Shown one piece after another: positions 1 through 20,226 of a stretch of 21,155 nt of DNA. Source of the stretch: a virus. The translations under genes were made by a program, and so were the position numbers. The notes beneath the pieces are model-generated. The model ran no database searches. It had not been told where the DNA came from and worked only from the letters and a program-made list of their open reading frames with translations. The stretch lies in IMG/VR virus record IMGVR_UViG_3300033149_006359, positions 1-21,155 of that record, one strand, 5' to 3'. Position 1 is the first letter of the stretch, and every line of letters starts with the position of its first letter.

Positions 1-435
1 ACCGAGTACGCCTTCGGATCTTGCGTCGATTCGCCCCTTGAGACGACCGATCCCTCGCGCGCTGTCCGGGTCTTTTTTCCGTTCGACGTCCGCTTCAACG
101 GCCAGAGTTATCCGGCGTCGATCTCTGGCGAGCTCACCGTCTCGTGGTTGCACCGAAACCGGCTCGGCGCGTGGAGTTATGCAGACTCGGGAAAGACAAC
201 CGAGGCCGAACCGGGGACCGAATACGATGTGCTCGTCTATGGCGAGCTGGGCACGCTTGTCCATACCGAGAGTGGTCTCACCGGCACCTCATGGACCTAC
301 CTTGAGGCAGACGAGATAGCTGAGTCAGGGCTGGGGCGTTTGAACAACCACCTGCGAGTCATAATCCGGACATTCGGCGATTCTCGGGCGCACCAGGCTA
401 TTCGCGAGATCGAGTGGGAGTTTGATAGGGTGTAG
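1..435 (+). CDS. Phage tail/tip protein, C-terminal part (5' end outside window)
   Basis: The reading frame is open from base 1 to a TAG at 433-435, so only the last 144 residues of a longer protein are present. The visible part reads like the fibronectin-like domain at the end of large tail or baseplate proteins of siphoviruses and gene transfer agents: a SWLHRNRLGAWSYADSG strand pair, an EPGTEYDVLVYGE segment, then GTSWTYLEADEIAESG and a final block of beta-strand-like residues. In that family the domain belongs to the host-contacting tip structure of the virion. The assignment rests on pattern recognition of the family's W-R-R/W-D and T-Y-A-Q signature positions. There is no catalytic motif to check. 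It is the only complete end of a virion late gene in this part of the window, and it is followed at once by the oppositely oriented cargo island. Confidence 0.6.
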   Translation, partial: TEYAFGSCVDSPLETTDPSRAVRVFFPFDVRFNGQSYPASISGELTVSWLHRNRLGAWSYADSGKTTEAEPGTEYDVLVYGELGTLVHTESGLTGTSWTYLEADEIAESGLGRLNNHLRVIIRTFGDSRAHQAIREIEWEFDRV

Positions 436-502
436 AACATGCCGAGGCCAGACTCCTGCAAAGTTATCCTAGAAGCCAGCTCGAGTGGAGCACAGAGCGG
501 AT

Positions 503-1423
503 TCAATCCAAACTTCCATCATCCACGTGCGAATTCAGAATGCCAGCGGCAGGGATTTCTCTCCGCTCACCAGCCGGGATGATAGACTGTGTAAGAGCCA
601 TGCCGCGTCGTCCTGCTTCCGACGCCCAGTCCCAATACTCAGCTGGAACAAAGGACGGCGTCATTCTCTCTTCCTCTTCAATCCTCTTTAGCACATCGTC
701 TTTGGGCAGCTTGAGTTTAGGCTTCTCTGTTCTCCTGAACTCAGCGAGGGCCTGCGACAACTTATCAAAGAGGTATACGGAGGGTTCCCCCTTCTTTCGT
801 GACCTCAATTCGGCATAAAGATAGGCATTCAGATATAGGTCCGTCTTCAAATAGGGAGTGAAATAGTCTTCATCCCTCGTCACAATCCACGCGCCGCCCG
901 CGGGATCCCAGGCGTCGAGGTACTGAATCCAAGTAAGTTGGTCACCAAGGGGATCCTTGGGCTTGCCTGGAGGAATACCGAGTTCTCTTCGCTCCCGGGC
1001 GCGCTCTATCATCCCTTTCTCGGGCTCGACGGCACTCTCCAGAAGTGGTTCGAGGACACTGGATATTTCATCGCGCCCACTTTGAACAGCCCTCAGCGTC
1101 TTCCGCGCACTCTCATCGAAACCCTTGAGAATGTCCTTGTAGTCCTTTTCGAACTGACTCCTCTTCTTGTTCCACTCCTTCGCTCCTCCACCGAGGTGCT
1201 CAGGTAGTCTCACCTGCTGCATGGTAGTGAGGTTTTCTCTGTACTGAAGCAAGGATTGTGCGCAAACTGCCAATCGGTTCCGACGGACTTCGTCAGCGAC
1301 CTGCCTTGTAATGAACAAGTGCCCTCTAATCTTCTTCAAGACCTTGAGCAATGCGCGGAATTCCCGAGCTTTCCCATCATAGAACCGCAACAGAATCGAG
1401 GCGTCGACTAGCAATTTCGGCAT
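503..1423 (-). CDS. PIN-like nuclease of the DUF4935 (PIN_12) type
   Basis: This 306-residue protein looks like a metal-dependent RNase of the PIN superfamily. The N-terminus carries the first acidic residue in LLVDASILL (D7), followed by D44-E45 in QVADEVRRNR. A charged, probably helical middle leads to PLGDQLTWIQYLDAW (D161), and then a strand with VTRDEDYF (D184, D186). A G-D-x-x-x-W block followed by a T-x-D-x-D/E strand is characteristic of DUF4935 proteins, so the catalytic acidic set appears intact. The start at 1423 has an AGGGGA ribosome site about 9 bases upstream. It is transcribed toward the tail gene and separated by 223 bases from the four-gene operon behind it, so it may have its own promoter. 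PIN proteins act as toxins or as effectors in phage defence. Which applies here is inference. The C-terminal 90 residues are basic and not recognised. Confidence 0.7.
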   Translation of the reverse strand: MPKLLVDASILLRFYDGKAREFRALLKVLKKIRGHLFITRQVADEVRRNRLAVCAQSLLQYRENLTTMQQVRLPEHLGGGAKEWNKKRSQFEKDYKDILKGFDESARKTLRAVQSGRDEISSVLEPLLESAVEPEKGMIERARERRELGIPPGKPKDPLGDQLTWIQYLDAWDPAGGAWIVTRDEDYFTPYLKTDLYLNAYLYAELRSRKKGEPSVYLFDKLSQALAEFRRTEKPKLKLPKDDVLKRIEEEERMTPSFVPAEYWDWASEAGRRGMALTQSIIPAGERREIPAAGILNSHVDDGSLD

Positions 1424-1553
1424 CTCTGATTTCCCCTATTACCTCTGCGTCCCAGTCGTCATCAATGATAATGCAAGAGACCGTTCTCTTCGCAACACGG
1501 ACCTTACCATTGACAATCTCGTGTGAAGCGAGGTCATTCCTCTGGAGGCCCAT
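1377..1553 (-). CDS. Possible 58-residue antitoxin-like protein overlapping the PIN gene
   Basis: A short frame starts at ATG 1553, directly after an in-frame TGA, and overlaps the first 47 bases of the PIN gene in another frame. The product contains VSCIIIDDDWDAEVIGEIRD. Its acidic turn followed by a V-I/G-I/E-I strand resembles the end of DUF2283 proteins, some of which are paired with toxins. A small gene just ahead of and overlapping a nuclease gene is a classic toxin-antitoxin arrangement. Against it: no clear ribosome site precedes 1553, and the frame is short. The same stretch holds a perfect 6-base inverted repeat (1475-1480 and 1485-1490, 4-base loop) that could instead be an operator for the PIN gene. 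This is a weak call. Confidence 0.25.
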   Translation of the reverse strand: MGLQRNDLASHEIVNGKVRVAKRTVSCIIIDDDWDAEVIGEIRDAEIASRRLDSVAVL

Positions 1554-1646
1554 GCATCACAAGTCTATTGCCTGACACAGCCCATCCGCCTCTGACCTAA
1601 TCCGCTAGCCACCCGCCCGCACGGCTGATTTATCCGCCCGACGCTG

Positions 1647-1898
1647 TCACTGTCTCCGCGGTTCCGGATCCTGTGCAGACTGCCTCTCACCCAACCCCGC
1701 ACTTCCCCTACCTGCCTCGCCGGCGTTTCCCTTTTGTCTCTCAATCCATGCGTCTATGTCACCTCGCCTAAACCTCCATTGCCCACGGACCTTGAAACCT
1801 GGAAGCTCTCTCTCTTGTGCCATAGTATATGCCGTCTTCTCGCCAATCTTCAAGAGAGCCGCGACTTCCCTCATGGTCAAAACCTCTTCGCCATTCAT
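1647..1898 (-). CDS. Excisionase-family helix-turn-helix DNA-binding protein
   Basis: This 83-residue protein opens with LTMREVAALLKIGEKTAYTM and continues with PGFKVRGQWRFRRGDIDAWI. That is the MerR-like HTH_17/excisionase fold: a tri-helical segment (residues about 7-27) followed by the G-x-W-R-F-x-x-x-D-I-D-x-W wing (about 39-51). Residues after 55 are low complexity, rich in G, E and R. Its start codon overlaps the stop of the PNP gene as ATGA, and a GGAGGT ribosome site lies 8 bases upstream inside the PNP gene, so translation is probably coupled. It is the last gene of the FAD-NDT-PNP-HTH operon. Proteins of this family are often named excisionases but just as often regulate their own operon. 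With no integrase in view, an operon regulator or a DNA-targeting partner is the likelier role. Confidence 0.75.
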   Translation of the reverse strand: MNGEEVLTMREVAALLKIGEKTAYTMAQERELPGFKVRGQWRFRRGDIDAWIERQKGNAGEAGRGSAGLGERQSAQDPEPRRQ

Positions 1899-3763
1899 CG
1901 TAAGCTACCTCCATGACCTGAGAATCCCCCCTGCCCGATCGTGTGAAACACAAAGTCCGCAGCTGCTTTCGCCGCCGATTCCTGCCGTTGTCGCTTCTTG
2001 TATCGCTTGCGTCCATCCGCCCAATCGCATATAGCCTTCACGATAATCCAGTCAACGTGGCGTTCACTGGCCGCCGCATAAAGGCCAGCCCCCTCCATCT
2101 CTCCGCCTAATGCCTCCGGCTCGAATGTCGTGAGCTGATTACGGAAGTCGACGTTGTCCACCAACTTCTCGCCTGACAACACTAGACCGAATTCGGCTTT
2201 GTTCCCCGTCCAGTTGGAAGTCGCGGCACGGAATCGGCCCAGCAAAGTCGTATCTGCCGTTACACGATCTCCACGAGGAATGATCTTCATCTCACTATGG
2301 CTCCCAGTGCCAATCCGTTGAATCTCATAGCACTGCAGCTGTTTGCTCACTAGGATCTCCGCAAGCTCTTGCTCATGAGGATTAACCCCGAATGCGATCC
2401 CAAGCAAGATCACAGCTGAAGGCCTCGTCTCATCTATCGCATCCTCGATGGTCTGAAGTGATCCCCCAGGCACTACGGACCCCTTCTCGGATTGAACCAG
2501 CAACACGCGGGCACCCCCAACCGTCCCAAGAGTGAAGTACGTCCTGCGAACGCCAAATCTTAGAGATACCCCGGCCCCGTTCCTCCTAGCAGCATCCAAA
2601 ACAGCATCACGCTCGACCTTTGCAGCGACAACCAGCAAAAGGTCACAGCGTCCCTCATCTTCCTCCGCCATACTCTTCTCCCAATTCGCGGCAAACGTGT
2701 TGTCACCACGAAGGACCCCCACGAGGTTGCGAGCGCGATCCACTGCGCTCAGGAAGTCCGGCCCAATGCTGGCGCTGCGTCCCGAAACCGCCATTGCGGC
2801 CCCTCGCGCAATCGCCTCCGACATCCTGCATCGAGCAGCGTACATACCGCCCGGTTCTCCACGCCTGCCAGCACTCATCCATGTCATGCGACTTAGAGTC
2901 CTTAGCAGAAGCCTCACTTGCCTTCGAAATTCGACATGCCCGCTTCCCACTCCCCTACTTGCCAAGAAGCCGTCCCACCAGATCCTGGTCTCTCTAGCAT
3001 TGCCCTTGATATACCTATCAAGACCACAAACACGAAGGAGTAAGACGATTAGACCTAGGTCGTACAATGGAAATGCCGTGCTCAGATGATCAAAGAACTC
3101 AAGCCCCCGTATGCCCGTTGGGATCTCACCACCAGCGTAATCCAAGTAGTGCGATGTGTACGCCGTCGAAATGCGACGGCGTAGAATGCCTTGATCACGA
3201 ACAGACTTGTCAAGCTCCGCAAGGCTCTGCTTGAAGAGCGCGAATGTCACCGCCCGTTCTTCTCGTTCCATCAATGCCTTGGCAACAGCCTTCTTCGTTA
3301 ACCGCAATCTGGCCTCTTCCTGCTTCTCCCGCGATTCATCCGGACCACTAAGGGCCCACGTGACCATGTCTCGTTCGATCTCGCTGGTAGTGTCAGAACG
3401 CTTCAAGGCTGTGGGACCAAACCCAGAATCCAATGCCTTCCCTCCCAAGAAGTACATTGGATATCGCCTCTCATCATGCCTATAGATCCACACCCTTGAT
3501 TCCAGGAATTCACCCAACGTTGAATGGTCGCTTACCAGATCGAGAACCTGCAGCCGCAAGAGTATAGAGATCAGATCGACAAGACCTGGGCTAGTCACGT
3601 CAGTTTCCCAAACCAGAGACAGACCACAATAGAGCTTGGACGTCGTACCGAGCAGCAGGCTCCTCATCGTTAGCTCTATGTCAACCGGACTGAGTCGACA
3701 TCCAACGGAAGTCCTTAGCTCACGGTCCAGGAAGTGTAGATAGAGAGGCGGCTCCCACCACAT
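1895..3763 (-). CDS. Large protein with C-terminal nucleoside phosphorylase/nucleosidase (PNP_UDP) domain
   Basis: This protein has 622 residues. Residues about 373-605 form a domain of the purine nucleoside phosphorylase/MTA-SAH nucleosidase superfamily, which cleaves the N-glycosidic bond of nucleosides. Visible markers are the core strand SAVILLGIAFGVNPHEQELA (about 450-469), the ribose-binding GGEMEGAGLYAA (553-564, E557) and the catalytic-acid strand IVKAICDWADGRK (D580), so the active site looks complete. The CDWADG form, with a lysine-rich tail and an alanine-rich last helix, matches the stand-alone effector-type PNP domains fused to other modules in bacterial conflict proteins. Residues 1-370 are mostly helical and I do not recognise them; they could be a sensor or oligomerisation module. 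An in-frame TGA sits 6 bases upstream of ATG 3763, which fixes the start at or after that point. The gene lies 6 bases after the NDT-like gene and overlaps the HTH gene by 4. Confidence 0.75.
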   Translation of the reverse strand: MWWEPPLYLHFLDRELRTSVGCRLSPVDIELTMRSLLLGTTSKLYCGLSLVWETDVTSPGLVDLISILLRLQVLDLVSDHSTLGEFLESRVWIYRHDERRYPMYFLGGKALDSGFGPTALKRSDTTSEIERDMVTWALSGPDESREKQEEARLRLTKKAVAKALMEREERAVTFALFKQSLAELDKSVRDQGILRRRISTAYTSHYLDYAGGEIPTGIRGLEFFDHLSTAFPLYDLGLIVLLLRVCGLDRYIKGNARETRIWWDGFLASRGVGSGHVEFRRQVRLLLRTLSRMTWMSAGRRGEPGGMYAARCRMSEAIARGAAMAVSGRSASIGPDFLSAVDRARNLVGVLRGDNTFAANWEKSMAEEDEGRCDLLLVVAAKVERDAVLDAARRNGAGVSLRFGVRRTYFTLGTVGGARVLLVQSEKGSVVPGGSLQTIEDAIDETRPSAVILLGIAFGVNPHEQELAEILVSKQLQCYEIQRIGTGSHSEMKIIPRGDRVTADTTLLGRFRAATSNWTGNKAEFGLVLSGEKLVDNVDFRNQLTTFEPEALGGEMEGAGLYAAASERHVDWIIVKAICDWADGRKRYKKRQRQESAAKAAADFVFHTIGQGGFSGHGGSLR

Positions 3764-3769
3764 TGCACA

Positions 3770-4243
3770 TCAACCCTCGTCGACAAAGAGCCCAAGCTGG
3801 CGCGGGGGCGGATGAGCAGGCGAATATCCGAGTACTGCGGTCAGAACTGCCTCCTTTGTCTTGAATGGGGTGGTGCGGTATACTTCGCGCTCGAAGCGAA
3901 GATCCTCCGGCTCGATTTCCTTGATCATCTCTGCACGGTTGTCAATTGTGAAATAGCGAATGGGCTTTCCTAGCTCCTTGGCGAGGAGAATCTCGAACAG
4001 GACACCATCAGCAATCGTCTGACCAAACACCCAAAGCTCGTCAACTATGCGAAGGAGGTTGTTGTTACCCTGACGGACCAAATCACGGTCGACCTTATCG
4101 TGGAGGAAGTATTCAAACACTCGAAAGGGATTCAGTGGCACCGCCTGGCGACTGAACACGTATTCACAAACTGCGTCTCTGCAGTAGAAGTACACTTTGG
4201 ACTGTGCGGTATAGACAACAGGCAGGGGCTCTTTGGAACTCAT
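3770..4243 (-). CDS. Nucleoside 2-deoxyribosyltransferase-like (NDT-fold) protein
   Basis: This 157-residue protein has the outline of small Rossmann-like proteins related to nucleoside deoxyribosyltransferases (DUF7768/DUF4406-like). It has a first strand VVYTAQSKVYFYCRDAVCEY, a middle region with conserved N and F residues, then RIVDELWVFGQTIADGVLFE (65-84) and LAKELGKPIRYFTI (87-100). The D-E-L-W-V-F-G strand followed by a glycine turn and a glutamate (E84) corresponds to the substrate-binding and nucleophile region of the NDT family. Catalysis is not proven, since many relatives are uncharacterised and may hydrolyse NAD or nucleotides instead. I chose ATG 4243 over longer starts because an AAGGAG ribosome site lies 6 bases upstream and only 2 bases separate it from the FAD gene's stop. 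A start at 4330 would overlap that gene by 85 bases. Second gene of the operon. Confidence 0.65.
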   Translation of the reverse strand: MSSKEPLPVVYTAQSKVYFYCRDAVCEYVFSRQAVPLNPFRVFEYFLHDKVDRDLVRQGNNNLLRIVDELWVFGQTIADGVLFEILLAKELGKPIRYFTIDNRAEMIKEIEPEDLRFEREVYRTTPFKTKEAVLTAVLGYSPAHPPPRQLGLFVDEG

Positions 4244-4245
4244 CT

Positions 4246-5547
4246 TTAGCTCCTTATGCATCGCGCCGCTTGGCAGCCGGAAAAGTAGCCACTGACGAGA
4301 GCCGCCGTCAGTCCTCGAAATAGCCCACACGCGTCGCCGACGACCCAGACGGGGTGTTTCCCCAGCTGAAGATTCGAAGCTGTGACAAACGGATACGACG
4401 CAACTCCTTCGATGGCAGGGCCATGTACATGGGCACCAACAAAACGATCTCTCCCGATCTGATCGCGGAGCAAAGCCAGGCCCTCCACCAGTACATCTGC
4501 CAATTCATCCCCCAGTACAGCGCGATGACCAACGGGGCTGCCCGAACGCACGTTCATAAAGCCATCTAATGATTCGGCGATTGGTTCAGAGATGTCCATG
4601 AGGCGGCGGAGGAGGCTTGGCCACTGTGCAGCTGGGTCCAAAGAGTTGGTAATCCGAACTAGAAAGCCTACGTTGGACATCTGAGTGGGGGAACCGTCGG
4701 CCCGTCCTGAGACGCTTAGAACGCCATCTGCACGTGAAACCACCAGCTCACCGTGTCGGCAACAACAGAATGTTCTCCATTCTCGCTCGAACACACCCCG
4801 ACAAATCAGCTTGGGGTCAATACCTCCCTCCGAATTCAGAAAGAATGCGGATGCTTCCTGCTCTATCCGAACTCCGACTTCAAGGCGGCGGAAGACTAGG
4901 TTCGCGGACGAGAGCTGCTTCTGCAAGAGCAAGGGGCCCAATCGACCTGTGGCAAAGATGACAGCCTTGGGCAGTATCTCGGCGGACCCGGAAGCTCGGG
5001 AGGAACTAAGCGTCTTGCCATTCTTTACGGCGAGAAGGGAAAGAGGAGAAACAGAAACAGCGCAGACTGATGTCTCTGTCTGGAGGACTGACTTGGATTC
5101 GTCGGCAAGCCGCCTAATCAGCGCCTCTCTCTGAGAACGAGTCATGTAGAAGGACGGATAGGCTTTCCGAACGAAACCCTCACCGACAGGAGTCGGAACG
5201 GGCTTCTCAAGGTTGGCCGGCAGGTCGGGGGCGTTGACACCGTGCGAACGAAGAATCGTCCGGCACCAGTCATATGCCTTCTCCAGATCAACAGCTGGCT
5301 TCAGTTCCCAGAGCTTCGAAGCGGCTGGATAAAAGGAGAACTTCCCATCTGAGAAAAGCCCCGCTCCTCCGATCCCCGTAATGGTCTGTTCTGAGTGCTG
5401 GCGATCGCGTGAAGAGAGGTGTCGGCCGCGTTCGACGAGCAGAGTATCGACGCCCTTTTGGAGACAAGCGATTGCGGCTGCGAGCCCGGCTGGGCCTCCA
5501 CCAATGACAACGACATCGGGGCGCTTGCGGGGTCCCGAGTCGATCAT
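4246..5547 (-). CDS. FAD-dependent oxidoreductase, COG2509-like
   Basis: This 433-residue flavoprotein begins with a Rossmann dinucleotide-binding motif, VVVIGGGPAGLAAA (12-25), and the acidic end of the second strand, LLVERG (E39). Next comes GIGGAGLFSDGKFSF (58-72), which is diagnostic of the uncharacterised FAD-dependent dehydrogenases of COG2509. A cysteine-rich RTFCCCRHGELVVS block corresponds to their conserved C-x-C-x-G-G segment. The C-terminus has VWVVGDACGLFRGLTAALVS, where the G-D strand closes the FAD site and an R-G turn follows. Length fits the family (about 430-540, here at the short end). Substrate is unknown. AGGAGG lies 6 bases before ATG 5547. It is the first gene of the four-gene operon, so its product is probably needed together with the two N-glycosidic-bond enzymes, either to make or modify a nucleotide-like compound or as a redox effector; that role is inferred. 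Confidence 0.8.
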   Translation of the reverse strand: MIDSGPRKRPDVVVIGGGPAGLAAAIACLQKGVDTLLVERGRHLSSRDRQHSEQTITGIGGAGLFSDGKFSFYPAASKLWELKPAVDLEKAYDWCRTILRSHGVNAPDLPANLEKPVPTPVGEGFVRKAYPSFYMTRSQREALIRRLADESKSVLQTETSVCAVSVSPLSLLAVKNGKTLSSSRASGSAEILPKAVIFATGRLGPLLLQKQLSSANLVFRRLEVGVRIEQEASAFFLNSEGGIDPKLICRGVFEREWRTFCCCRHGELVVSRADGVLSVSGRADGSPTQMSNVGFLVRITNSLDPAAQWPSLLRRLMDISEPIAESLDGFMNVRSGSPVGHRAVLGDELADVLVEGLALLRDQIGRDRFVGAHVHGPAIEGVASYPFVTASNLQLGKHPVWVVGDACGLFRGLTAALVSGYFSGCQAARCIRS

Positions 5548-6960: not shown

Positions 6961-8436
6961 GTGAAACAAGTTACCACCAAGGTTAACACCAGGGGGCCGC
7001 AGCGGTCGCCGAAGTCGTCCGGCAAGCAGTCGAAGAAGCGCACTGACGGGACCAAATCTGAGCCTGATCCGGCGCCCGATTCCCCCGTCAGACTGCCGGG
7101 CAAGCTCGTTCACTGGCCCATAGACCGGCTCCGCCCCTACGAGCGAAACCCCAGGACTCACAGCCCCGAGCAGATCACCAAGATCGCGGCGAGCCTTCTT
7201 GAATTCGGCTGGACGAACCCCATCCTCGTCGATGGCGAGGCCGGGATAATCGCAGGCCACGGACGCTTGCTCGCGGCCCGGGAGATCGGGATGACGACCG
7301 TCCCGGTGATCGAGCTCACCCATCTCAGCGAGGCACAGAAGCGCGCCTACGTCATCGCCGACAATCGCCTGGCGCTGGATGCAGGTTGGGACGAGGACCT
7401 CCTTGCCGAGGAGCTCAAGGCACTGGAGGGCCTCGAGTTCAACCTCGAGCTGACCGGGTTCGACCTGGACGAGATCAAGGGTTTGCTCGAGGACGAGACC
7501 ACCGAGGAAGTCGCCGCACCGGAACCACCTGAGGATCCCATATCGCGCCTCGGCGAGCTTTGGATCCTCGGGAATCACCGGCTGCTCTGCGCCGACTCCT
7601 CCGACCCAGCAGCGGTCGATCGGCTCCTCGGCAGCGCTAAGGTTCACCTCGTGAACACCGATCCGCCCTACAACGTGAAGGTTGAGCCGCGCTCGAACAA
7701 CGCGATCGCCGCAGGGCTCTCCTCCTTCTCTGGACTGAAGCACCACCAGAGGTTCGATCTGGAGCGCCACAAGGCGAAGGCAACGGGCAAAGGCAAGATG
7801 CGCCCCAAGGACCGCCCCTTGGCCAACGACTTCGTCACCGACGAAGCCTTCGACGAGATGCTCCTGGCATGGTTCGGAAACATGGCTCGAGTCCTCCTCC
7901 CAGGCCGTGCCTTCTACATCTGGGGCGGCTATGCCAACTGCGCGAACTACCCGCCGGCCCTCAAGGCGGCAGGCCTCTACTTCAGTCAGGCGATCATTTG
8001 GGTAAAGGAGCATCCGGTTCTCACCCGGAAAGACTTCATGGGTAACCACGAGTGGTGCTTCTACGGTTGGCGCGAGGGGGCGGGCCACAAGTTCTTCGGC
8101 CCATCGAACGCGGTCGATGTCTGGGCGGTCAAGAAGGTCAATCCGCAGAGCATGGTCCATCTGACAGAGAAGCCGGTCGAGCTGGCGGTTCGCGCGATCC
8201 AGTACTCCTCAAAGCCCAAAGAAAACGTGCTCGATCTCTTCGGCGGAAGCGGGAGCACGGTTATCGCGGCCGAGCAAACGGGGCGGCGATGCTTCGTGAT
8301 GGAGCTCGACCCGGCGTACTGCGACGTCATTATCGAACGCTGGCAGACGGCGACCGGCGAGAAGGCGGTGATGGAGGCAGACGGGACCACCTTCGAGGAG
8401 GTTGCCGCAGACCGCGGGACCGCTCAGGATGAGTAG
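6961..8436 (+). CDS. ParB-like domain fused to a DNA methyltransferase
   Basis: This 491-residue two-domain protein is of a type common in phages. After a basic, disordered N-terminus (1-45), residues about 50-150 form a ParB/sulfiredoxin-like domain: DRLRPYERNPRTH, then IIAGHGRLLAAREIG (96-110) with the G-H-G-R nucleotide-binding motif, and KRAYVIADNRLALDAGWD. Residues about 195-470 form an S-adenosylmethionine-dependent DNA methyltransferase. It has motif IV NTDPPYN (232-238) before motif I LDLFGGSGSTVIAA (424-437), the beta-class order. HLTEKPVELAVRAI is the segment that normally precedes motif I. DPPY indicates amino-methylation, most often N6-adenine. The start is GTG 6961 with GGAAGAG just upstream. 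The target sequence cannot be read from the protein. A likely role is marking phage DNA against host restriction or in packaging control, given its place next to the terminase genes. Confidence 0.85.
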   Translation: MKQVTTKVNTRGPQRSPKSSGKQSKKRTDGTKSEPDPAPDSPVRLPGKLVHWPIDRLRPYERNPRTHSPEQITKIAASLLEFGWTNPILVDGEAGIIAGHGRLLAAREIGMTTVPVIELTHLSEAQKRAYVIADNRLALDAGWDEDLLAEELKALEGLEFNLELTGFDLDEIKGLLEDETTEEVAAPEPPEDPISRLGELWILGNHRLLCADSSDPAAVDRLLGSAKVHLVNTDPPYNVKVEPRSNNAIAAGLSSFSGLKHHQRFDLERHKAKATGKGKMRPKDRPLANDFVTDEAFDEMLLAWFGNMARVLLPGRAFYIWGGYANCANYPPALKAAGLYFSQAIIWVKEHPVLTRKDFMGNHEWCFYGWREGAGHKFFGPSNAVDVWAVKKVNPQSMVHLTEKPVELAVRAIQYSSKPKENVLDLFGGSGSTVIAAEQTGRRCFVMELDPAYCDVIIERWQTATGEKAVMEADGTTFEEVAADRGTAQDE

Positions 8437-10945: not shown

Positions 10946-10965
10946 ACCAGACTTGAAGGTCTGGT
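10946..10965. terminator. Small hairpin at the end of the second PIN-like gene
   Basis: ACCAGAC (10946-10952) and GTCTGGT (10959-10965) are perfect 7-base arms around a 6-base loop. On the minus strand the hairpin starts at the stop codon of the PIN-like gene and is followed by TTGTTG, a weak T-rich tail. It could end that transcript and also read-through from the terminase side. Confidence 0.35.
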
Positions 10966-12125
10966 CATTGCCAAGACGGCGGACCAGTCTCCAAAGCATC
11001 GATAATAGCTCCAACTGACGCCGAGACGTGAATAGGCGGCAAGACTTGTCTCCAGATACTGAGTTGTGGATCTCTCCGCTGGGCCTGGCGAACGAAGTGA
11101 GCAATGCGCTTGTCCGAGAAGAACACGTCAACATACGGAAGGTGGACTACATGCTCCAAATCGTACTCGTTGCTCACCGGATTGACAGGATCCTCCCTCT
11201 CCATCTCCAGTCGCACAAGGTGGCGGAGCCATGTCCCCAGACAGCACTCTAATTCAATCTTCGATTCCAATTCTGCTACCGTGGCTGGCTCCAATTCGCT
11301 CAGATACTCTCTCGCACAGCTCTGGACCTGTTGCCTGAGAACCGTCCTGTCAATGAGGTATTCAACTGTCTGTTTGTCGTCTCGCTTGGGCTCGGCGTCA
11401 ACAGATTCCTCCAAAGCCCGCCGCGGACCAACTTGTCTCATGCGCTGGACAAAGCCTATCATGAGGTCTCGCGCCTCTTGTTTAGATTTCTCGACCAGAG
11501 CTGGATCCCAGTTTCTGACCAAGGCTGCCCAGTCATTGTCATCAGAGAACACTCTATCCAGCTCTTGTAGAGCGCTATCGAGATCGACGTTCTCCGGAAC
11601 ATCCTCTGATATCTTCCGAAGCCGGGCCGGAGCGTATTTCTCGTCACGCGGTCGAGACTTCGCTGACGCTCCAAGGCTTCTTGCATGATGGAACGCGGAT
11701 TTCAACGATCGCACTATGGGGATCTCACTTACCAAGGGGATCAGCCGTACCTCAATGGATGTCAAGACCATAGGGAATCCCGCCCAGTAGCGATCATATT
11801 GCTCAATCTCGCTCTGTCGCCCGAGTAACCGCATCAAAGCCAAATAGAGCTCCCTCATCATTACCAGATCAAACTCAAGCCGCGTCCGCCCAGGAAACGG
11901 CAGATGGCTGCGGATAGGAATCAACTTCTGTATGAGTTCATACCTCCGCTTACGATCTCTGTAGTATTCGCAGTTCTGGATCTCGTCCAGATGAATACGA
12001 GACACCGCCAAGGTACAGCCTAGCGATCGCCAGATCTGCAGGAAGCGGTCGAATTGGTCATCGGATTGGCTCATCGCATCTGCCAGGACATTCAGGTTGC
12101 TATTGTCCAAGTAGACTAGACTCAT
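10965..12125 (-). CDS. PIN-like domain protein, orphan cargo gene
   Basis: This 386-residue protein starts with LVYLDNSNLNVLAD (D7), the first-strand aspartate of a PIN-like fold. It continues with VSRIHLDEIQNCEYYRD (D47, E48, E53) and ends with EYDLEHVVHLPYVDVFFSDK (D322, D333, D338), where a D-x-x-x-H-x-x-x-x-P-Y-x-D-x-F-F-x-D block supplies the later acidic residues. That pattern is seen in uncharacterised PIN-like proteins of mobile elements; the middle 200 residues are helical and unrecognised. I chose ATG 12125 because GGAG lies 8 bases upstream and the MSLVYLD start is typical. The frame extends to 12263 but adds no family-like sequence. It is the only minus-strand gene between the terminase and the small early genes, and its GC (33/60 at 11581-11640) is lower than the backbone, which fits an acquired gene. 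An RNase effector or toxin role is inferred. Confidence 0.6.
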   Translation of the reverse strand: MSLVYLDNSNLNVLADAMSQSDDQFDRFLQIWRSLGCTLAVSRIHLDEIQNCEYYRDRKRRYELIQKLIPIRSHLPFPGRTRLEFDLVMMRELYLALMRLLGRQSEIEQYDRYWAGFPMVLTSIEVRLIPLVSEIPIVRSLKSAFHHARSLGASAKSRPRDEKYAPARLRKISEDVPENVDLDSALQELDRVFSDDNDWAALVRNWDPALVEKSKQEARDLMIGFVQRMRQVGPRRALEESVDAEPKRDDKQTVEYLIDRTVLRQQVQSCAREYLSELEPATVAELESKIELECCLGTWLRHLVRLEMEREDPVNPVSNEYDLEHVVHLPYVDVFFSDKRIAHFVRQAQRRDPQLSIWRQVLPPIHVSASVGAIIDALETGPPSWQ

Positions 12126-12633
12126 GGCTGCATCTCCAAATGCAAGCATCGATCGGTGTAGCCAGCACAACTTCCGTATGCCCAACTCCGAGTTACACAG
12201 AAGACGGGCAACGGATACCGCGGGCCCTCTAGCGAGAGTATCCGAGGTCGCCGCGAAACTCAACGGGCCAGCCTGCCTGATATGTCCCCCACCCCGCTTA
12301 TCTGTCCGTCCCTAACGCTGGATAACCCGCCCCCCTTTGTAGTTGGAGTGCCCTCCTGTTCGGTCGGCCTGAGCTAACCACCGGGCCGCCGCCAGGGCGC
12401 GACAGGCGCGTCGTGGGCGTAGATTCCCGGATCCAGGCCCAAGGCTACCTCCCGATACCAAGTCGCCGCCCAGGGGCCGCCCTCCAACCGGACAGGAATC
12501 GTCCGGTCGAATCGGCGTAACCCACTGGAATAGATGCGATTACGTGTCGAATTGCCTTCACTTCCGGCCCCAAACGCTCGTTACTGTCCCTGTACCGGGC
12601 ATGGGGCCCGGCGCGCCACAAAAGGAGGGACTG
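12126..12633. other. Long intergenic region ahead of the small + strand genes
   Basis: These 508 bases lie between two divergent genes and contain no convincing coding frame. They hold a 7-base inverted repeat (ACCGGAC 12487-12493 and GTCCGGT 12501-12507), one isolated CCTTCAC copy near 12553 like the repeats at the proposed origin, and, at the right end, the strong AAAGGAGG ribosome site of the next gene. Base composition changes from the lower-GC cargo to the backbone near 12260-12350, a plausible insertion boundary. Promoters for both sides must lie here, but I cannot pick hexamers with confidence. Confidence 0.5.
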
Positions 12634-13832: not shown

Positions 13833-14156
13833 TCAGAGGCGGCCCTCCCCTAATCGGTTCCGCTGTCGCCAAGCCGTCGCCCGACACGCGTCGGAGCAGT
13901 AGATCCTCTTCGAGCGCCGACCGCGGCAAATCCGCTCTGTTCCGCAGACCGGACACCGCACAACACGGTCGCCGTTAGCGTTCTCGTGCACTGCATAGCG
14001 TTCGTTTGGCGAGGTAGGTTGTATGACTCCCGATCTAGCAGAAACACTGCCCTGCGACGAATTCGACGACGGCACTGTCGATGACTCCACGGATGGAGAG
14101 ACTGATGCTAGTAGGTGCCGGGAAACTCTGGATCGAGTCGCCTGAGGAGGTTTCAC
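13833..14156 (-). CDS. Small zinc-ribbon protein
   Basis: A 107-residue frame whose C-terminal half looks real: VVRCPVCGTERICRG followed by RIYCSDACRATAWRQRNR. Two C-x-x-C/C-x-x-x-C pairs with Y-C-S-D-A-C-R and a basic tail are common in small phage and actinobacterial zinc proteins. The N-terminal half is serine-rich and low complexity. The start used is GTG 14156, inside the TTTCAC repeat region, with a G-rich but not ideal ribosome site. The true start could lie further in, though no ATG is available there. It lies downstream of the primase-polymerase gene in the same direction and would be read across the proposed origin. Function unknown; nucleic-acid binding is plausible. Confidence 0.5.
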   Translation of the reverse strand: MKPPQATRSRVSRHLLASVSPSVESSTVPSSNSSQGSVSARSGVIQPTSPNERYAVHENANGDRVVRCPVCGTERICRGRRSKRIYCSDACRATAWRQRNRLGEGRL

Positions 14157-14365
14157 TCTTTCACCCCACCCTTACATACGCGCGCGGGAGGAGGGACATA
14201 TCCAGTGAGAGAGGAAGGTAGGGGTGAAAGGTAGAAAGATAGAAAGAAATATATATATTGTATGTAGTTACAGTCATAGATCCTTCACGATCCTTCACTC
14301 TATTTCACCTCCTGAAGATGTTTCACGATTCTTTCACCCATGGCTTGGCCGTTAAGATCCTTCAC
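14151..14365. repeat. Iteron-like TTCAC repeats with AT-rich tract: candidate replication origin
   Basis: The 10-mer GATCCTTCAC occurs exactly at 14279-14288, 14289-14298 and 14356-14365. The variant core TTTCAC occurs at 14151-14156, 14159-14164, 14303-14308, 14321-14326 and 14332-14337, and in inverse orientation (GTGAAA) at 14224-14229. Several copies are 10-11 bases apart, about one helical turn. Next to them, 14241-14270 is 25/30 A or T in an otherwise GC-rich genome, and TAGAAAGA is repeated in tandem at 14232-14247. Phased direct repeats beside an AT-rich tract, immediately downstream of a primase-polymerase gene, are the usual elements of an iteron-type origin. The last copy lies inside the 3' end of the primase gene. 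An operator array is the alternative. Confidence 0.55.
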
Positions 14366-16526
14366 TCTCGCCTGGTCCTTCTCCGGATTCTTGCTGCTGC
14401 GTGGTTCCGACCAGCTGGTAGAACCGCCCAGGTTTCGTTGCGGTCGGCTGGTTTCGGATCACAATATCCCCGCGTTGTTCGAGCGTGTTCACAATAAGCA
14501 TGAAGTTCTTCGTGTCCATCTTCATGCGCTTGAGCAGAACGCTGTGCGGGAGCTCGAGTTCAGGGGCCCCGCGCAGCTTCTCCAAGAACTTTAGGCACTC
14601 GGCATGGAAGGGGTTCGCCGCAACGTGGGACTGTGTCATGAAGAGCATCCGCCTGGCCTGGTGCATGACGAAGCGCCTGGCCCACTGCGCCGCTGTCTTT
14701 CCTATCTCAGGATGGGCGCGGTTCTCGCTCACAGCGTGGATCAGCGCGAGCTTCCGCGCGTGCTCGGTCACGCGGCCCCACACAGCGGTACCTACCGTGT
14801 CTCCAGAAGCCTCCGCCTTGGCGTACTCCGCCTCCGCTTCGATCCGGTTCTCGATCAAGATGCGGACCGCCTCTTGGCTAATGGGGACAACCCGAGGCAC
14901 GGGGTGCCACTGTTCGAGGTTCCCGGCCCCTGGACGGAAGTCCGCCCACCACTTGGCTGCCTCCAGCACGCGAGGGGGCGGCGGCTCGATCGTCGGTTCC
15001 TGCCCCGGTGACCGCTTGCCCGATTCCAGGATGATCATGCGGGCGAAGAACCCGTTGGTGAGCATCCGCTCAGAGAGCGCCTCGTAATAGTGGTTCGGGA
15101 TCGCCGTGCCGAAGACCACGAGGCAGGGCTGATCGATGGCCCCCGGAGATTCTTTGCCTGCCTTGCGGCGCATTGGAAAGATCGAGTTCGCCGCCGAGTA
15201 CATCGTAAGAAGCGTCCCCATGATGTTCTCGTGTCTGGCGTCCCTGGCCTTGTTGATCGACTGGAGCATCCCGTCGATCTCGTCGGTCTGGAACAACATG
15301 CATGGTTCGCCGAAGAGAGCGTCCTGAACACCCTCGCCCGAGGCGAACCGGCCACCGATCTGGTCCGCCAATCCGACCGCGTGGAGGATCTCGATGTTGA
15401 TCTTACGCGGATGCTCCTTCCCGGCGGAGGAGTGGGCGAGACCCAGCAGATAAAGGTTCGTCCGGTTGTTCCCGGGGTCGCGCACCTTACGGCCGGCGAG
15501 CACCGCCTGGAGCGCCAGCGCCCCCGCGAAGGCCATAACCACGTTCGGATACGGCGCGGTGGCCAGGCAGTGGTCCATCACCTCGGAGACGAAGCCCGGC
15601 ACGCGCAGGAGCTCGTCCGGCAACGGGCCGGGATCGAAGATTTCAGGCGCGCTGTCGTCGCTTGAGGCAGCGCAGTCCGTATCCTGCGCCCAGTGGTTTT
15701 CGGCCACGGCCACGGCCACCTGATCGGGTTCGTAGCGGGAGATGCTTGAGGCGATCCGCTTGACCTCCCGGGCCGAGAGCGGCGGCCGGCATCGATTCTG
15801 GTTGGCACGTTCCAGAGCGGCGAGGATCTCCTCCCCGCCCATTCCCACGCGGCGCATGGTCCCCGCCAAGCGCGCAAGGGTAGCGTTGCGCTGACCGGCT
15901 GGGATAGTGTTGCCATCCGGGGGCGGGGTCTCTCCCCTGGGCGCGGCCCACGTGTCTGGTGGAGCGGTCGCTTCTCCGTTGCCTCCGGGGGCGTCTCGGG
16001 CGAACAGACCCTCCGATCCGTCCAGCAGCGCCACGATCCATCCGGGAGGTTCGGGCAGCTCGTGGGGAGCGGTCTTCAGCTCTGACTTCTCGGCCCACCG
16101 GTACGGTTTCCCGTCCACGATCGAGGGCGGCACTACGATGTAGCCGCCGTTCGCTCGGGTATCCACCTTCGGCGCGATCTTTCCGGCCGTGTTGCTCCAG
16201 CTCTTGCCCGCCGGCTGGCGGAATATGTGGTGCCGCCCGCCGCGCGGCGTGAGGGATATCGGACAACGCAAGAGATCCTCCGCCTTGACCTGGTCGCCCG
16301 GCCAGGGATTCTCCGCGCCATCGACGTCGATGACGAGGAGTCCCGCGGTGGGCATAGCGACGTTCGCGTTCGGGCGTTTCGCCCACCACGCCTTGATCTG
16401 CGCGGCTTCGGTGGTTGCGTCCCTAAAGCCGTGCGGTGTGATCGGCGCCTTCCCCCCGGGAGCGCAGGGGAAGACAGGATAGCCCAGCGCGGCGTAGCGG
16501 AGCGCGGAATCGAGCAGCGTGCTCAA
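14352..16526 (-). CDS. Bifunctional primase-polymerase with DUF3987 helicase-like C-terminus
   Basis: A 724-residue replication protein. Residues 1-165 are a prim-pol domain: YAALGYPVFPCAPGGKAPIT, the metal-binding VIDVDG (65-70), RGGRHHIF (95-102) and DTRANGGYIVVPPS (122-135). Residues about 208-265 (AGQRNATLARLAGTMRRVG, ending EVKRIASSISRYEP) are the PriCT-type linker domain. Residues about 300-710 match DUF3987, a P-loop helicase-like region, with HSSAGKEHPRK (365-375) as Walker A and LFQTDEIDGM (411-420) as Walker B. It probably primes and unwinds phage DNA at the adjacent repeat cluster. The start overlaps the helicase stop as ATGA, so it is the penultimate gene of the minus-strand replication operon. 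The GEGPGESEGS end is encoded partly by the repeat region. Confidence 0.9.
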   Translation of the reverse strand: MSTLLDSALRYAALGYPVFPCAPGGKAPITPHGFRDATTEAAQIKAWWAKRPNANVAMPTAGLLVIDVDGAENPWPGDQVKAEDLLRCPISLTPRGGRHHIFRQPAGKSWSNTAGKIAPKVDTRANGGYIVVPPSIVDGKPYRWAEKSELKTAPHELPEPPGWIVALLDGSEGLFARDAPGGNGEATAPPDTWAAPRGETPPPDGNTIPAGQRNATLARLAGTMRRVGMGGEEILAALERANQNRCRPPLSAREVKRIASSISRYEPDQVAVAVAENHWAQDTDCAASSDDSAPEIFDPGPLPDELLRVPGFVSEVMDHCLATAPYPNVVMAFAGALALQAVLAGRKVRDPGNNRTNLYLLGLAHSSAGKEHPRKINIEILHAVGLADQIGGRFASGEGVQDALFGEPCMLFQTDEIDGMLQSINKARDARHENIMGTLLTMYSAANSIFPMRRKAGKESPGAIDQPCLVVFGTAIPNHYYEALSERMLTNGFFARMIILESGKRSPGQEPTIEPPPPRVLEAAKWWADFRPGAGNLEQWHPVPRVVPISQEAVRILIENRIEAEAEYAKAEASGDTVGTAVWGRVTEHARKLALIHAVSENRAHPEIGKTAAQWARRFVMHQARRMLFMTQSHVAANPFHAECLKFLEKLRGAPELELPHSVLLKRMKMDTKNFMLIVNTLEQRGDIVIRNQPTATKPGRFYQLVGTTQQQESGEGPGESEGS

Positions 16527-18217
16527 AACGGCAGGTCTCCTTCATCTGCGTAGGCGTACACTTCCTCACCGACATCCTCGTCACAGCCCGGGTCCCGCCA
16601 GGCGGGTCTGTCACCCAGGTCATAACCGATGATGCGGGGATATTCTTCCCCGGCGACGCTGCGTACGGTGATGGATCGGGTTTCGCAGAGGGCACCATCA
16701 CTGGCGAGCACCTCGGCCTCGGCGGCCGAGTCCGGAACCGGCGCCTCCGAGCGCCTTCGCCACCACGATTCGGCCTTGTGGCGCGGCCAGCCGGTGTGCT
16801 CGAAGCAGATCCACTCCGACTGATACTTGTGGAAGCCGATGCGATACTCGACCCGCAGCGTCTTCGGCGCATCGTCCGGGGCTCCACGCTTGTGGTGCAC
16901 GCTGTAGTGGACCGCTTCGACCTCATAGACCGTCGTCGTCACCTCGCCGGAGAGGATGTCGTCGGTCGAGGCGGTCGCCTCGTGGTTTTGCCGCTTGGGC
17001 GGCGGGAACTCGTAGCCGCAGTCGGGGCACACTGCGTACCCTGCCGCGATCAGGCTCCGGCACTCGGGGCACTGCTTCGCCGGCGGATCCCCGTTCCCAC
17101 GGTGGTTTACCTTGTGGACGCGAATGGCATCGACAGGCCCGTGCCGCAGGACGTTTCCGCCGAAGTCCAGGACCAGGCAGTTTTCCTTCCCGTCGTGGAG
17201 CCGAAAGCCCCGCCCGACCATCTGGTAGTACAGGCCCGGCGACAGTGTAGGCCTGACCATGGCCACGCAGTCGATGTTGGGCGCGTCGAACCCCATGGTC
17301 AGCACGTTCACGTTGACCAAGTACTTGAGCTCCCCAGCCCTGAAAGCCCCAAGCACCTCGCCGCGTTCGGCATCGGCCGTCTCACCGAAGACCATCCCGA
17401 CGTCCTCTCCAGACTTCGCCCGCAATACCTCCGCGACGTGGTGGCCGTGCCGGACCCCGGCGGCGAAGATGAGCACCGAGCGGCGCGCAAGGGTCTGCTC
17501 AAGGATCTCATGGCACGCCGACTCGACTAGTTCGTCCGTGTCCATCAGATCCTCGGCATCGCCCGCGACGAACTCCCCGCCGCGAACATGCAGACCGGAG
17601 GTGTCGATCGCCTCGCGGCTTCCCTTAGTCACGAGCGGACAGAGGTAGCCTTGGACGATCAGCTCCTTCACACCGACCTCGTAGCAGACTTCGTTCAGCA
17701 CGTTGTCCGGCTCGCAGATCATCCCGCTTCTCATCCGGAACGGCGTCGCGGTGAGGCCGATGACCCGCAGGCTCGGGTTGACCGTCCGGGCATCCTTCAG
17801 AAAGGTCCGATACATGCCGTCCCCCTCCGGGGGGATCATGTGCGCCTCGTCGATGATTACGAGGTCGAAGGCGTCGAGCTCGCAGGCGCGCTTGTAGACC
17901 GACTGGATACCCGCGATGATGATCGGGTGCTCGGTGTCCCGGCTCCTGAGGCCCGCCGAGTAGATCCCGGTCTTAGTCCACATCTCAGGCGCCACCATGC
18001 GAATCTTCTCCAATGCCTGCTCGAGCAGCTCCCTAACGTGGGCAAGTATGAGCACGCGCCCGTTCCAGCGGCCCACTGCATCGGCGCAGATCCGAGCCAT
18101 CACGAAGGTCTTGCCGCTACCTGTTGGAAGCACAACACACGGGTTGTCGTCGCGTTCCCGCAGGTGGCCGTAGATCGCGGCCACCGCCTCGTGTTGATAG
18201 GGTCGAAGCTCAAGCAC
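16523..18217 (-). CDS. DEAD/DEAH-box superfamily 2 helicase
   Basis: A 564-residue ATP-dependent helicase of the type III restriction/UvrB-like class, common in phage replication modules. It has Q-like RPYQHEA (5-11), Walker A PTGSGKT (31-37), motif II IIDEAH (121-126), motif III LTATP (155-159), motif V LTMGFDAPNID (306-316) and motif VI QMVGRGFR (332-339). After the helicase core, a zinc ribbon CPECRSLIAAGYAVCPDCG (383-401) is followed by about 160 residues with strand-rich segments and a basic WPRHKAESWWRRR stretch. These probably guide DNA or protein contacts. The start is GTG 18217, with AAGGGGG 10 bases upstream, overlapping the resolvase gene by 8. Its stop overlaps the primase start as ATGA. 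Confidence 0.9.
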   Translation of the reverse strand: MLELRPYQHEAVAAIYGHLRERDDNPCVVLPTGSGKTFVMARICADAVGRWNGRVLILAHVRELLEQALEKIRMVAPEMWTKTGIYSAGLRSRDTEHPIIIAGIQSVYKRACELDAFDLVIIDEAHMIPPEGDGMYRTFLKDARTVNPSLRVIGLTATPFRMRSGMICEPDNVLNEVCYEVGVKELIVQGYLCPLVTKGSREAIDTSGLHVRGGEFVAGDAEDLMDTDELVESACHEILEQTLARRSVLIFAAGVRHGHHVAEVLRAKSGEDVGMVFGETADAERGEVLGAFRAGELKYLVNVNVLTMGFDAPNIDCVAMVRPTLSPGLYYQMVGRGFRLHDGKENCLVLDFGGNVLRHGPVDAIRVHKVNHRGNGDPPAKQCPECRSLIAAGYAVCPDCGYEFPPPKRQNHEATASTDDILSGEVTTTVYEVEAVHYSVHHKRGAPDDAPKTLRVEYRIGFHKYQSEWICFEHTGWPRHKAESWWRRRSEAPVPDSAAEAEVLASDGALCETRSITVRSVAGEEYPRIIGYDLGDRPAWRDPGCDEDVGEEVYAYADEGDLPF

Positions 18218-19443: not shown

Positions 19444-20226
19444 TTACTTCGCTCCTTTGCTCTTCCCGCCATGGGGCGAGCCTGTGGGGCCGCTGGTCAA
19501 GTGCTTGGCGTAAACGTTCCAGTCGAGCGGCATCTCTTCGGGAAGGCTCAGGCGGTTCTTCGCCACGTGGGCGGGGCGCTCGACGGTGCGGATGATCCGC
19601 TCTCCCGTCCCGATGCCCTGCGTGCGCTTGCGGTCGAATCCTTCGTCGGTCTGCTTGGTGTAGACCTTGAACGTCGCGAAGAGCACCTCGTCGCACCACT
19701 CCTGGAGCACCTGCGACGCGAGCCGATGAAGGCGGGGAACGTAGCGGTCGTAGGACTCCGTCTCGGGGTTCTCGAACCGTTCGATCCGGGCATGCGCGAT
19801 CAGGACCACGATCATGCCCTTGTCGTTGCGCAGCGCCGTCAATCCCTCGAGGAACTCGCGCCACTGCGTGAGGGCGAACACGTAGCCCTTCGCGTAGCCA
19901 ATGTCCTCGATGCTCTCGACGTTGCGCTTGCGGCACACCTCGGCCCAAATGAGGCGCTCCAGCCAATCCAGCGAGTCCACGACAACCGTCCGATAGGGAT
20001 GCTTCTCGGTGTAGAGCTCCGAGAGGGCCTGCATGGCCTGATCAAACGTCGCGGTGAGGGGAAACTTGTCGCAGTCGATCTCGCCCAGGCCGTCCTCCGT
20101 CTGGATGAACACGGGCTTGGGCGCGCACGAGGCGAACGTCGACTTGCCGATGCCATGCGTGCCGTAGAGCATCACGCGCCTCGGCGCCGGATTCCGTCCG
20201 CTCGTTACTTGTTCCAAGAGCTTCAT
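19444..20226 (-). CDS. AAA_24 / Sak4-like ATPase (putative single-strand annealing protein)
   Basis: A 260-residue RecA-like NTPase with Walker A YGTHGIGKST (21-30) and Walker B TVVVDSLDW (80-88). It also has IVVLIAHARIERF (about residues 140-152), a sensor-like strand with a histidine, and a basic C-terminal tail (HGGKSKGAK). This is the phage nucleotide-binding family AAA_24, to which the Sak4 single-strand annealing proteins belong. The neighbouring exonuclease upstream and the DUF669 protein downstream support a recombination role. AGGAGG lies 8 bases before ATG 20226. The probable function is loading onto ssDNA left by the exonuclease and annealing it, in recombination-dependent replication or repair. 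Confidence 0.8.
   Translation of the reverse strand: MKLLEQVTSGRNPAPRRVMLYGTHGIGKSTFASCAPKPVFIQTEDGLGEIDCDKFPLTATFDQAMQALSELYTEKHPYRTVVVDSLDWLERLIWAEVCRKRNVESIEDIGYAKGYVFALTQWREFLEGLTALRNDKGMIVVLIAHARIERFENPETESYDRYVPRLHRLASQVLQEWCDEVLFATFKVYTKQTDEGFDRKRTQGIGTGERIIRTVERPAHVAKNRLSLPEEMPLDWNVYAKHLTSGPTGSPHGGKSKGAK

Follow-up and report, generated by a model that had tools for sequence, protein, structure and literature searches.

A candidate iteron-type replication origin at the 3' end of a phage Prim-Pol primase gene

Where could replication start in a phage whose primase gene runs out into a cluster of short repeats? This question is raised by virus record IMGVR_UViG_3300033149_006359, analysed over its whole length of 21,155 bp (the window). 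A phage replication operon comprising DUF3799 (exonuclease-like), Sak4-like AAA_24, ResIII/DEAD-type helicase and Prim-Pol primase genes lies on the - strand; terminase and ParB-N methylase genes lie on the + strand. An earlier note, made from the window alone, regarded repeats next to the primase gene as a strong candidate for the phage replication origin. The position, conservation and layout of this element, its co-variation with the primase and the predicted folds were computed here. The genes concerned are as follows.

14352..16526, - strand: Prim-Pol primase gene, 724 aa, stop at 14352
16523..18217, - strand: ResIII/DEAD-type helicase gene of the primase operon, lying upstream of the primase gene in 111 of 132 loci
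19444..20226, - strand: Sak4-like AAA_24 recombinase gene, present in 90 of 132 loci
6961..8436, + strand: ParB-N/N6-N4 DNA methylase gene, downstream of the element in 80 of 132 related loci (76 on the primase strand)
13833..14156, - strand: zinc-ribbon ORF, 107 aa, downstream of the primase, with relatives in 2 of 132 loci

Four further - strand ORFs (306, 622, 433 and 432 aa, at 1-5547 and 10965-12263) lie in stretches whose G+C is below that of the phage genes. For the 432-aa ORF, the 132 loci contain no relative. These ORFs are perhaps cargo, possibly of a defence type.

Nine TTCAC/GTGAA copies are found within 14151-14365 (215 bp), the densest such stretch of the window. TTCAC is read on the + strand at 14152, 14160, 14284, 14294, 14304, 14322, 14333 and 14361, and the single GTGAA at 14224. 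Exact copies of GATCCTTCAC start at 14279, 14289 and 14356, and TTTCAC at 14151, 14159, 14303, 14321 and 14332, so that the three exact copies, five variants and one inverse copy described earlier are all present. The cluster exceeds chance: in first-order Markov simulations matching the whole window, the surrounding 800 bp or the region itself in composition, a 6-mer with six copies per 215 bp arose in 0/1000, 0/500 and 1/500 runs, and a 5-mer with nine copies in 2/1000, 1/500 and 0/500, respectively. A repeat finder reports little of the array, whose short copies with their uneven spacing presumably escape it.

The iteron reads GTGAA(A/G)G on the primase strand; GATCC is a local feature that relatives do not conserve. 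The repeats had been called helically phased, which is partly borne out by the window, where successive spacings on the primase side are 28, 11, 18, 10 and 10. Across 67 nonredundant loci with at least four GTGAA, the distances between pairs of copies show peaks at 10 (38), 20 (31) and 31 (31), and further peaks at 7 (27), 13 (18) and 18 (21); helical phasing is therefore a tendency and not a rule.

Read on the primase strand, the element begins with six direct GTGAA cores, from the last primase codons to about +68. These are followed by an A+T-/pyrimidine-rich stretch and a single inverted core; next comes a 60-bp segment in which CG/TG steps alternate, and then two direct cores. The array thus reaches both the coding end of the primase (stop 14352) and the opening codons of the zinc-ribbon ORF (14156), as had been noticed before. 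Its parts are listed below.

14284..14365, - strand: primase-side iteron block with six GTGAA cores, conserved in relatives
14232..14272, no strand assigned: A+T-rich tract, presumed unwinding element, with a run of pyrimidines on the primase strand, its placement kept in relatives
14224..14228, + strand: single inverted iteron
14157..14231, - strand: right half of the element, which can fold as a hairpin (window fold z -2.1)
14152..14164, - strand: outer iteron pair (TTCAC at 14152 and 14160)

The A+T stretch of 25/30 reported beside the repeats is confirmed: at starts 14232-14243 it is the maximum of the window, and the tract lies between the iteron blocks. The right half consists of the inverted iteron, a pyrimidine-rich arm, alternating CGCGCGTATG, a purine arm and a direct iteron. 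A GTGAA-specific search for this half gave matches in 56 of 133 nonredundant loci. Right-half folds lie below those of shuffled sequences in all eight sequences examined (window z -2.1, others -4.3 to -6.5). Hairpin covariation is absent, RNAalifold giving only the invariant iteron pair with 0 compensatory changes; no Rfam family matches at the element among the eight sources scanned, and no T-run follows the hairpin on the primase strand in the window. Type II hammerhead ribozymes score above the Rfam gathering threshold a few kb past the primase in three of these eight sources (L148:11378-11441, L083:10861-10924 and L185:12329-12413, - strand); the window has none.

Relatives of the primase were drawn from viral contigs and one-genome-per-species assemblies, the hosts of the latter being mostly Planctomycetota, also Eisenbacteria, Krumholzibacteriia, Verrucomicrobia and others. 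Repeats around the primase stop were sought as any repeated 8-mer, with no prior choice of GTGAA, and equal-length windows of the same loci served as controls. At least seven copies of one 8-mer occur in 98/163 primase-stop regions versus 13/1058 control windows, and at least six in 116/163 versus 49/1058. In 32 of 133 nonredundant loci, every 8-mer has fewer than six copies. The candidate origin is positioned directly downstream of the putative initiator gene, the element beginning at the primase stop; the repeat unit differs among relatives while position and layout are kept. Five distant named phages (Vibrio H188, Pseudoalteromonas C7, Synechococcus Ssp-JY40, Roseobacter CRP-902 and Sinorhizobium NV1.1.1; 5 of 534 matched records) have only 3-5 copies after the primase, the same as controls; hence not every Prim-Pol phage carries the element.

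A second conserved motif follows the iteron element, about +130 to +500 past the primase stop, in L040, L093, L097, L099, L102, L116, L121, L142 and other loci. It consists of TAGGTACTTCC, hairpin-like GCGGGAACAGCCGC and then GACAGAGTTTGTTT, and is perhaps a packaging or processing site. Its first part (GGTACTTC) was found in 25 of 133 nonredundant loci; the motif is not obvious in the window.

By class patterns chosen after inspection of the sequences, as were the wing patterns given below, 75 of the 133 nonredundant loci belong to the GTGAA class. The other classes are CAARARGT (11), GCAATAA (10), CAAYRGGT (8) and TCCGTCA (3), with GGCCATAAG/GGTAAGT (3), CGGAAAGA (2) and GAAYCGAG (1) as minor ones; 20 loci fit no class. 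The cultured Planctomycetota laboratory strain Rhodopirellula rubra CECT 8075 has one such module (L185). Some Planctomycetota genomes hold the primase module in two copies. Those of SV_7m_r (L180/L205) differ in repeat unit (GTGAAAGA versus CGAAAGAA), as predicted by incompatibility; both copies in Neorhodopirellula pilleata (L199/L203) carry CGGAAAGA.

Which protein could read such repeats? The zinc-ribbon protein had been proposed as one binder, a suggestion that found no support: its ORF has no relative in the viral contigs and was recovered by local tblastn in 2 of 132 loci. It probably stands outside the system. The other proposed binder, the primase, is a multidomain protein with the following parts.

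aa 8-159: Prim-Pol domain
aa 207-268: PriCT_1
aa ~310-630: MCM-like AAA+ ATPase
aa ~639-706: winged helix, followed by a disordered tail whose codons contain an iteron
14409..14612, - strand: winged-helix codons (aa 639-706), the predicted iteron reader (AlphaFold2 H-b-H-H-b-b and co-variation)

The Prim-Pol domain is matched by PF09250 in Pfam (E 3.9e-41), and PriCT_1 is matched as well. Residues 310-630 of the window primase have no Pfam match, DUF3987 (PF13148) giving none at E 1; this profile matches 10 of 31 family members, with a best value of 2.6e-16. The predicted ATPase fold (aa 310-629) resembles MCM helicases, the best VIA-align match (Z 15.5) aligning 266 residues at 4.4 A with 12% identity. 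The model is of low confidence at about aa 391-480. All 50 structure matches listed are MCM proteins or complexes, some of them also covering the MCM winged helix, as far as aa 706-708. By sequence, MCM was not recovered: Pfam gave no such match up to E 1 in the 31 members, and neither did PDB sequences, where the primase found one chance match (E 0.48). The MCM likeness of the predicted ATPase is one of fold only and is no proof of helicase activity. The AlphaFold2 winged helix (aa 639-705) has a block pLDDT of 71-90, and the domain was also modelled alone. For the winged helix alone, Foldseek gave MarR/PadR-like matches, none with E <=0.001, and the P4 origin-binding domain is not among the matches listed. 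DUF927, the family of SaPIbov1 Rep, has no Pfam match up to E 1 in the 31 members, as judged by family profile.

The link between helix and repeats is given by co-variation, measured as the occurrence of one locus's best 8-mer in the element of another versus windowed protein identity, with partial r computed given core identity (aa 300-640). Partial r is -0.09 to 0.15 within aa 300-639, 0.38 for 600-659 and 0.53-0.55 within 620-709. The value observed for aa 647-706 was reached by 0/999 permutations, in which kinship between loci remains. In short windows, partial r is 0.02 for 620-635, 0.43 for 636-653 and at its maximum of 0.56 for 654-669; it stays at 0.43-0.56 across 636-687 and is then 0.13 at 688-706, the codons nearest the repeats. 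The signal is near zero at aa 600-635 and sets in sharply at residue 636. Within the GTGAA class alone it is 0.36 for aa 640-706, with four other windows tested at -0.02 to 0.10.

On a FastTree core tree, the repeat class changes 15 times, of which only five independent pairs lie on supported branches; the helix type follows the repeat class in 3.9 of these five on average and never opposes it (p 0.125). Between L201 and L182, 2109 bp of DNA are 88.9% identical, up to a point 149 bp before the L201 stop; beyond it, winged helix and repeats are both different (TCCGTCA versus GTGAA). This pair shows one swap of helix together with repeats. Among 40 loci with a PFW-like helix, wings TPQR/SPQR/APQR pair with CAAYRGGT in 9/9, and wings RPSK/RPSR/RPTK/RPGK with CAARARGT in 11/11, neither group carrying the other's unit. 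Wing RPGL occurs with at least two GCAATAA in 8/8, one also having one CAAYRGGT and another two CAARARGT; the remaining 12 of the 40 are mixed or lack these units. That the C-terminal domain of the primase sets origin specificity is supported by the co-variation, the one swap and the wing pattern, all at the level of sequence comparison.

An element of the same kind is found on a replicon. Plasmid pC of Spartinivicinus ruber, an 82,464-bp circle with phage structural genes, keeps the replication gene order of the window; the pC primase aligns over 90% of the query at 24.0% identity, and after its stop come 11 copies of TTTCACAT, compared with 3-4 in controls. No other replication initiator is named in the pC gene table, which is incomplete; pC encodes a DnaT-like protein. 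GC skew, which had been suggested as a check for a replication start, gave no signal. The window is flat, the mean over 46 loci stays within bins of -0.02 to +0.03 with no switch at the element, and the cumulative minimum of pC is near 2 kb while its element is at 10.6-10.9 kb. The origin claim thus gained comparative support from position, winged-helix co-variation and a circular phage-plasmid, none from GC skew, and the element stays a candidate. With a probability of roughly 0.8, it is the phage replication origin, of iteron type, placed at the 3' end of the initiator gene and bound by the primase's own winged helix.

Several other readings of these repeats have to be weighed. Plasmid iterons used for handcuffing, and P4 crr, provide copy control or incompatibility, and the present repeats could likewise bind the primase for this function, with the true melting site elsewhere. 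Iteron arrays often do both jobs, and an array entering the coding end of a gene fits a control locus equally well. The element is, however, the densest array of the window and is accompanied by an A+T-rich tract of its own whose place is conserved; copy control by itself is unlikely. The repeats might instead be an operator through which the primase or another phage regulator controls downstream genes or its own level, replication starting elsewhere. A winged helix would suit a MarR/PadR-like DNA binder, and the element does precede the next gene. Yet it stands at the end and not the start of the primase operon, its many copies flank the A+T-rich tract on both sides, the genes downstream vary (ParB-methylase in 80/132, zinc ribbon in 2/132), and its co-variation partner is a replication protein, which makes this reading distinctly unlikely.

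The co-variation could also reflect linkage only, neighbouring repeats and 3' codons being inherited or recombined together without contact. The repeats adjoin these codons, and the five supported pairs provide few independent contrasts. Mere proximity is nevertheless unsuited to a signal that does not rise smoothly towards the repeats but is near zero at 600-635, high at 636-687 and lower at 688-706. Moreover, the repeats persist as sets of many copies of a single unit, which wing residues match, and linkage alone is judged very doubtful. A packaging site (cos/pac) or transcription terminator, suggested by the hairpin that the right half can form, is hardly credible: the hairpin lacks a T-run on the primase strand, a large-terminase relative is present in 12 of 132 loci (downstream in 11, median offset 3.5 kb), and the tie to the primase helix is conserved.

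For the preferred reading, a replication origin, the following scheme could be proposed. The primase would act as a one-protein initiator, its C-terminal winged helix binding the GTGAA(A/G)G iterons that flank the A+T-rich tract on either side. The MCM-like AAA+ ring would assemble at the element and melt its A+T-/pyrimidine-rich middle, perhaps aided by the hairpin-forming right half. The Prim-Pol domain would then lay the first primers, and the host polymerase would take over. We infer iteron binding, melting, priming and a replication start at the element. Reader and sites are adjacent and could therefore be changed or swapped together, so that related phages would come to differ in origin specificity.

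An origin after a primase gene is known from S. thermophilus Sfi21. Among the papers listed by the literature search, none deals with the present element and none with the Sfi21 origin and primase. In SaPI Rep, as described by Ubeda et al. 2007 (via PMC7581432), the C-terminal domain recognises an iteron origin directly after its gene. The present protein differs in joining AEP Prim-Pol, PriCT_1 and a DUF3987-type ATPase, in its mostly Planctomycetota hosts and in a repeat unit whose class varies with the winged helix; SaPI is compared here by its description. P4 alpha is a primase-helicase whose winged helix binds origin repeats, followed by unwinding and priming, but its primase is of TOPRIM type and not AEP Prim-Pol; the likeness is again one of description (PMC4234260). 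ORF904 of the crenarchaeal plasmid pRN1 combines AEP Prim-Pol, helicase and a C-terminal winged helix, and the region directly after its gene is needed for replication. According to the same account, pRN1 requires a stem-loop, has no iterons, showed no specific binding and has an SF3 helicase, in contrast to the iterons and MCM-like fold found here (PMC4234260).

SCCmec Cch is MCM-like, and Cch2 binds direct repeats after its gene, with only three iterons in the site; the text available in PMC7581432 describes no fused Prim-Pol, unlike the fusion here. PrimQH/all3500 AEP families have DUF3987 and a C-terminal winged helix in the domain order found here; as predicted by the authors who described them, the winged helix would recognise the origin and DUF3987 would act as a helicase. 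The candidate origin and co-variation are supplied by the present data, the text available in PMC5862659 giving no origin. By analogy, the present system would operate in a similar way, joining the AEP fusion and position of pRN1 with the iterons and C-terminal reading of SaPI/P4.

A somewhat wider conclusion is slightly favoured by us. In a large, mostly Planctomycetota-linked phage and prophage family, a single Prim-Pol/MCM-like/winged-helix protein may serve as the complete initiator, its specificity residing in a swappable cassette of winged helix and iterons with a readable code (TPQR to CAAYRGGT, RPSK to CAARARGT, LLKRM-type helices to GTGAA), and such cassettes may set incompatibility groups among co-resident phages. 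A candidate origin is thereby provided for widespread fused primases, whose origin recognition by the winged helix is only predicted in PMC5862659. About a hundred natural readers are paired with their sites, which makes residue-to-base rules directly testable. If the element works with the primase on a plasmid, it would offer a first basis for building vectors that replicate in Planctomycetota.
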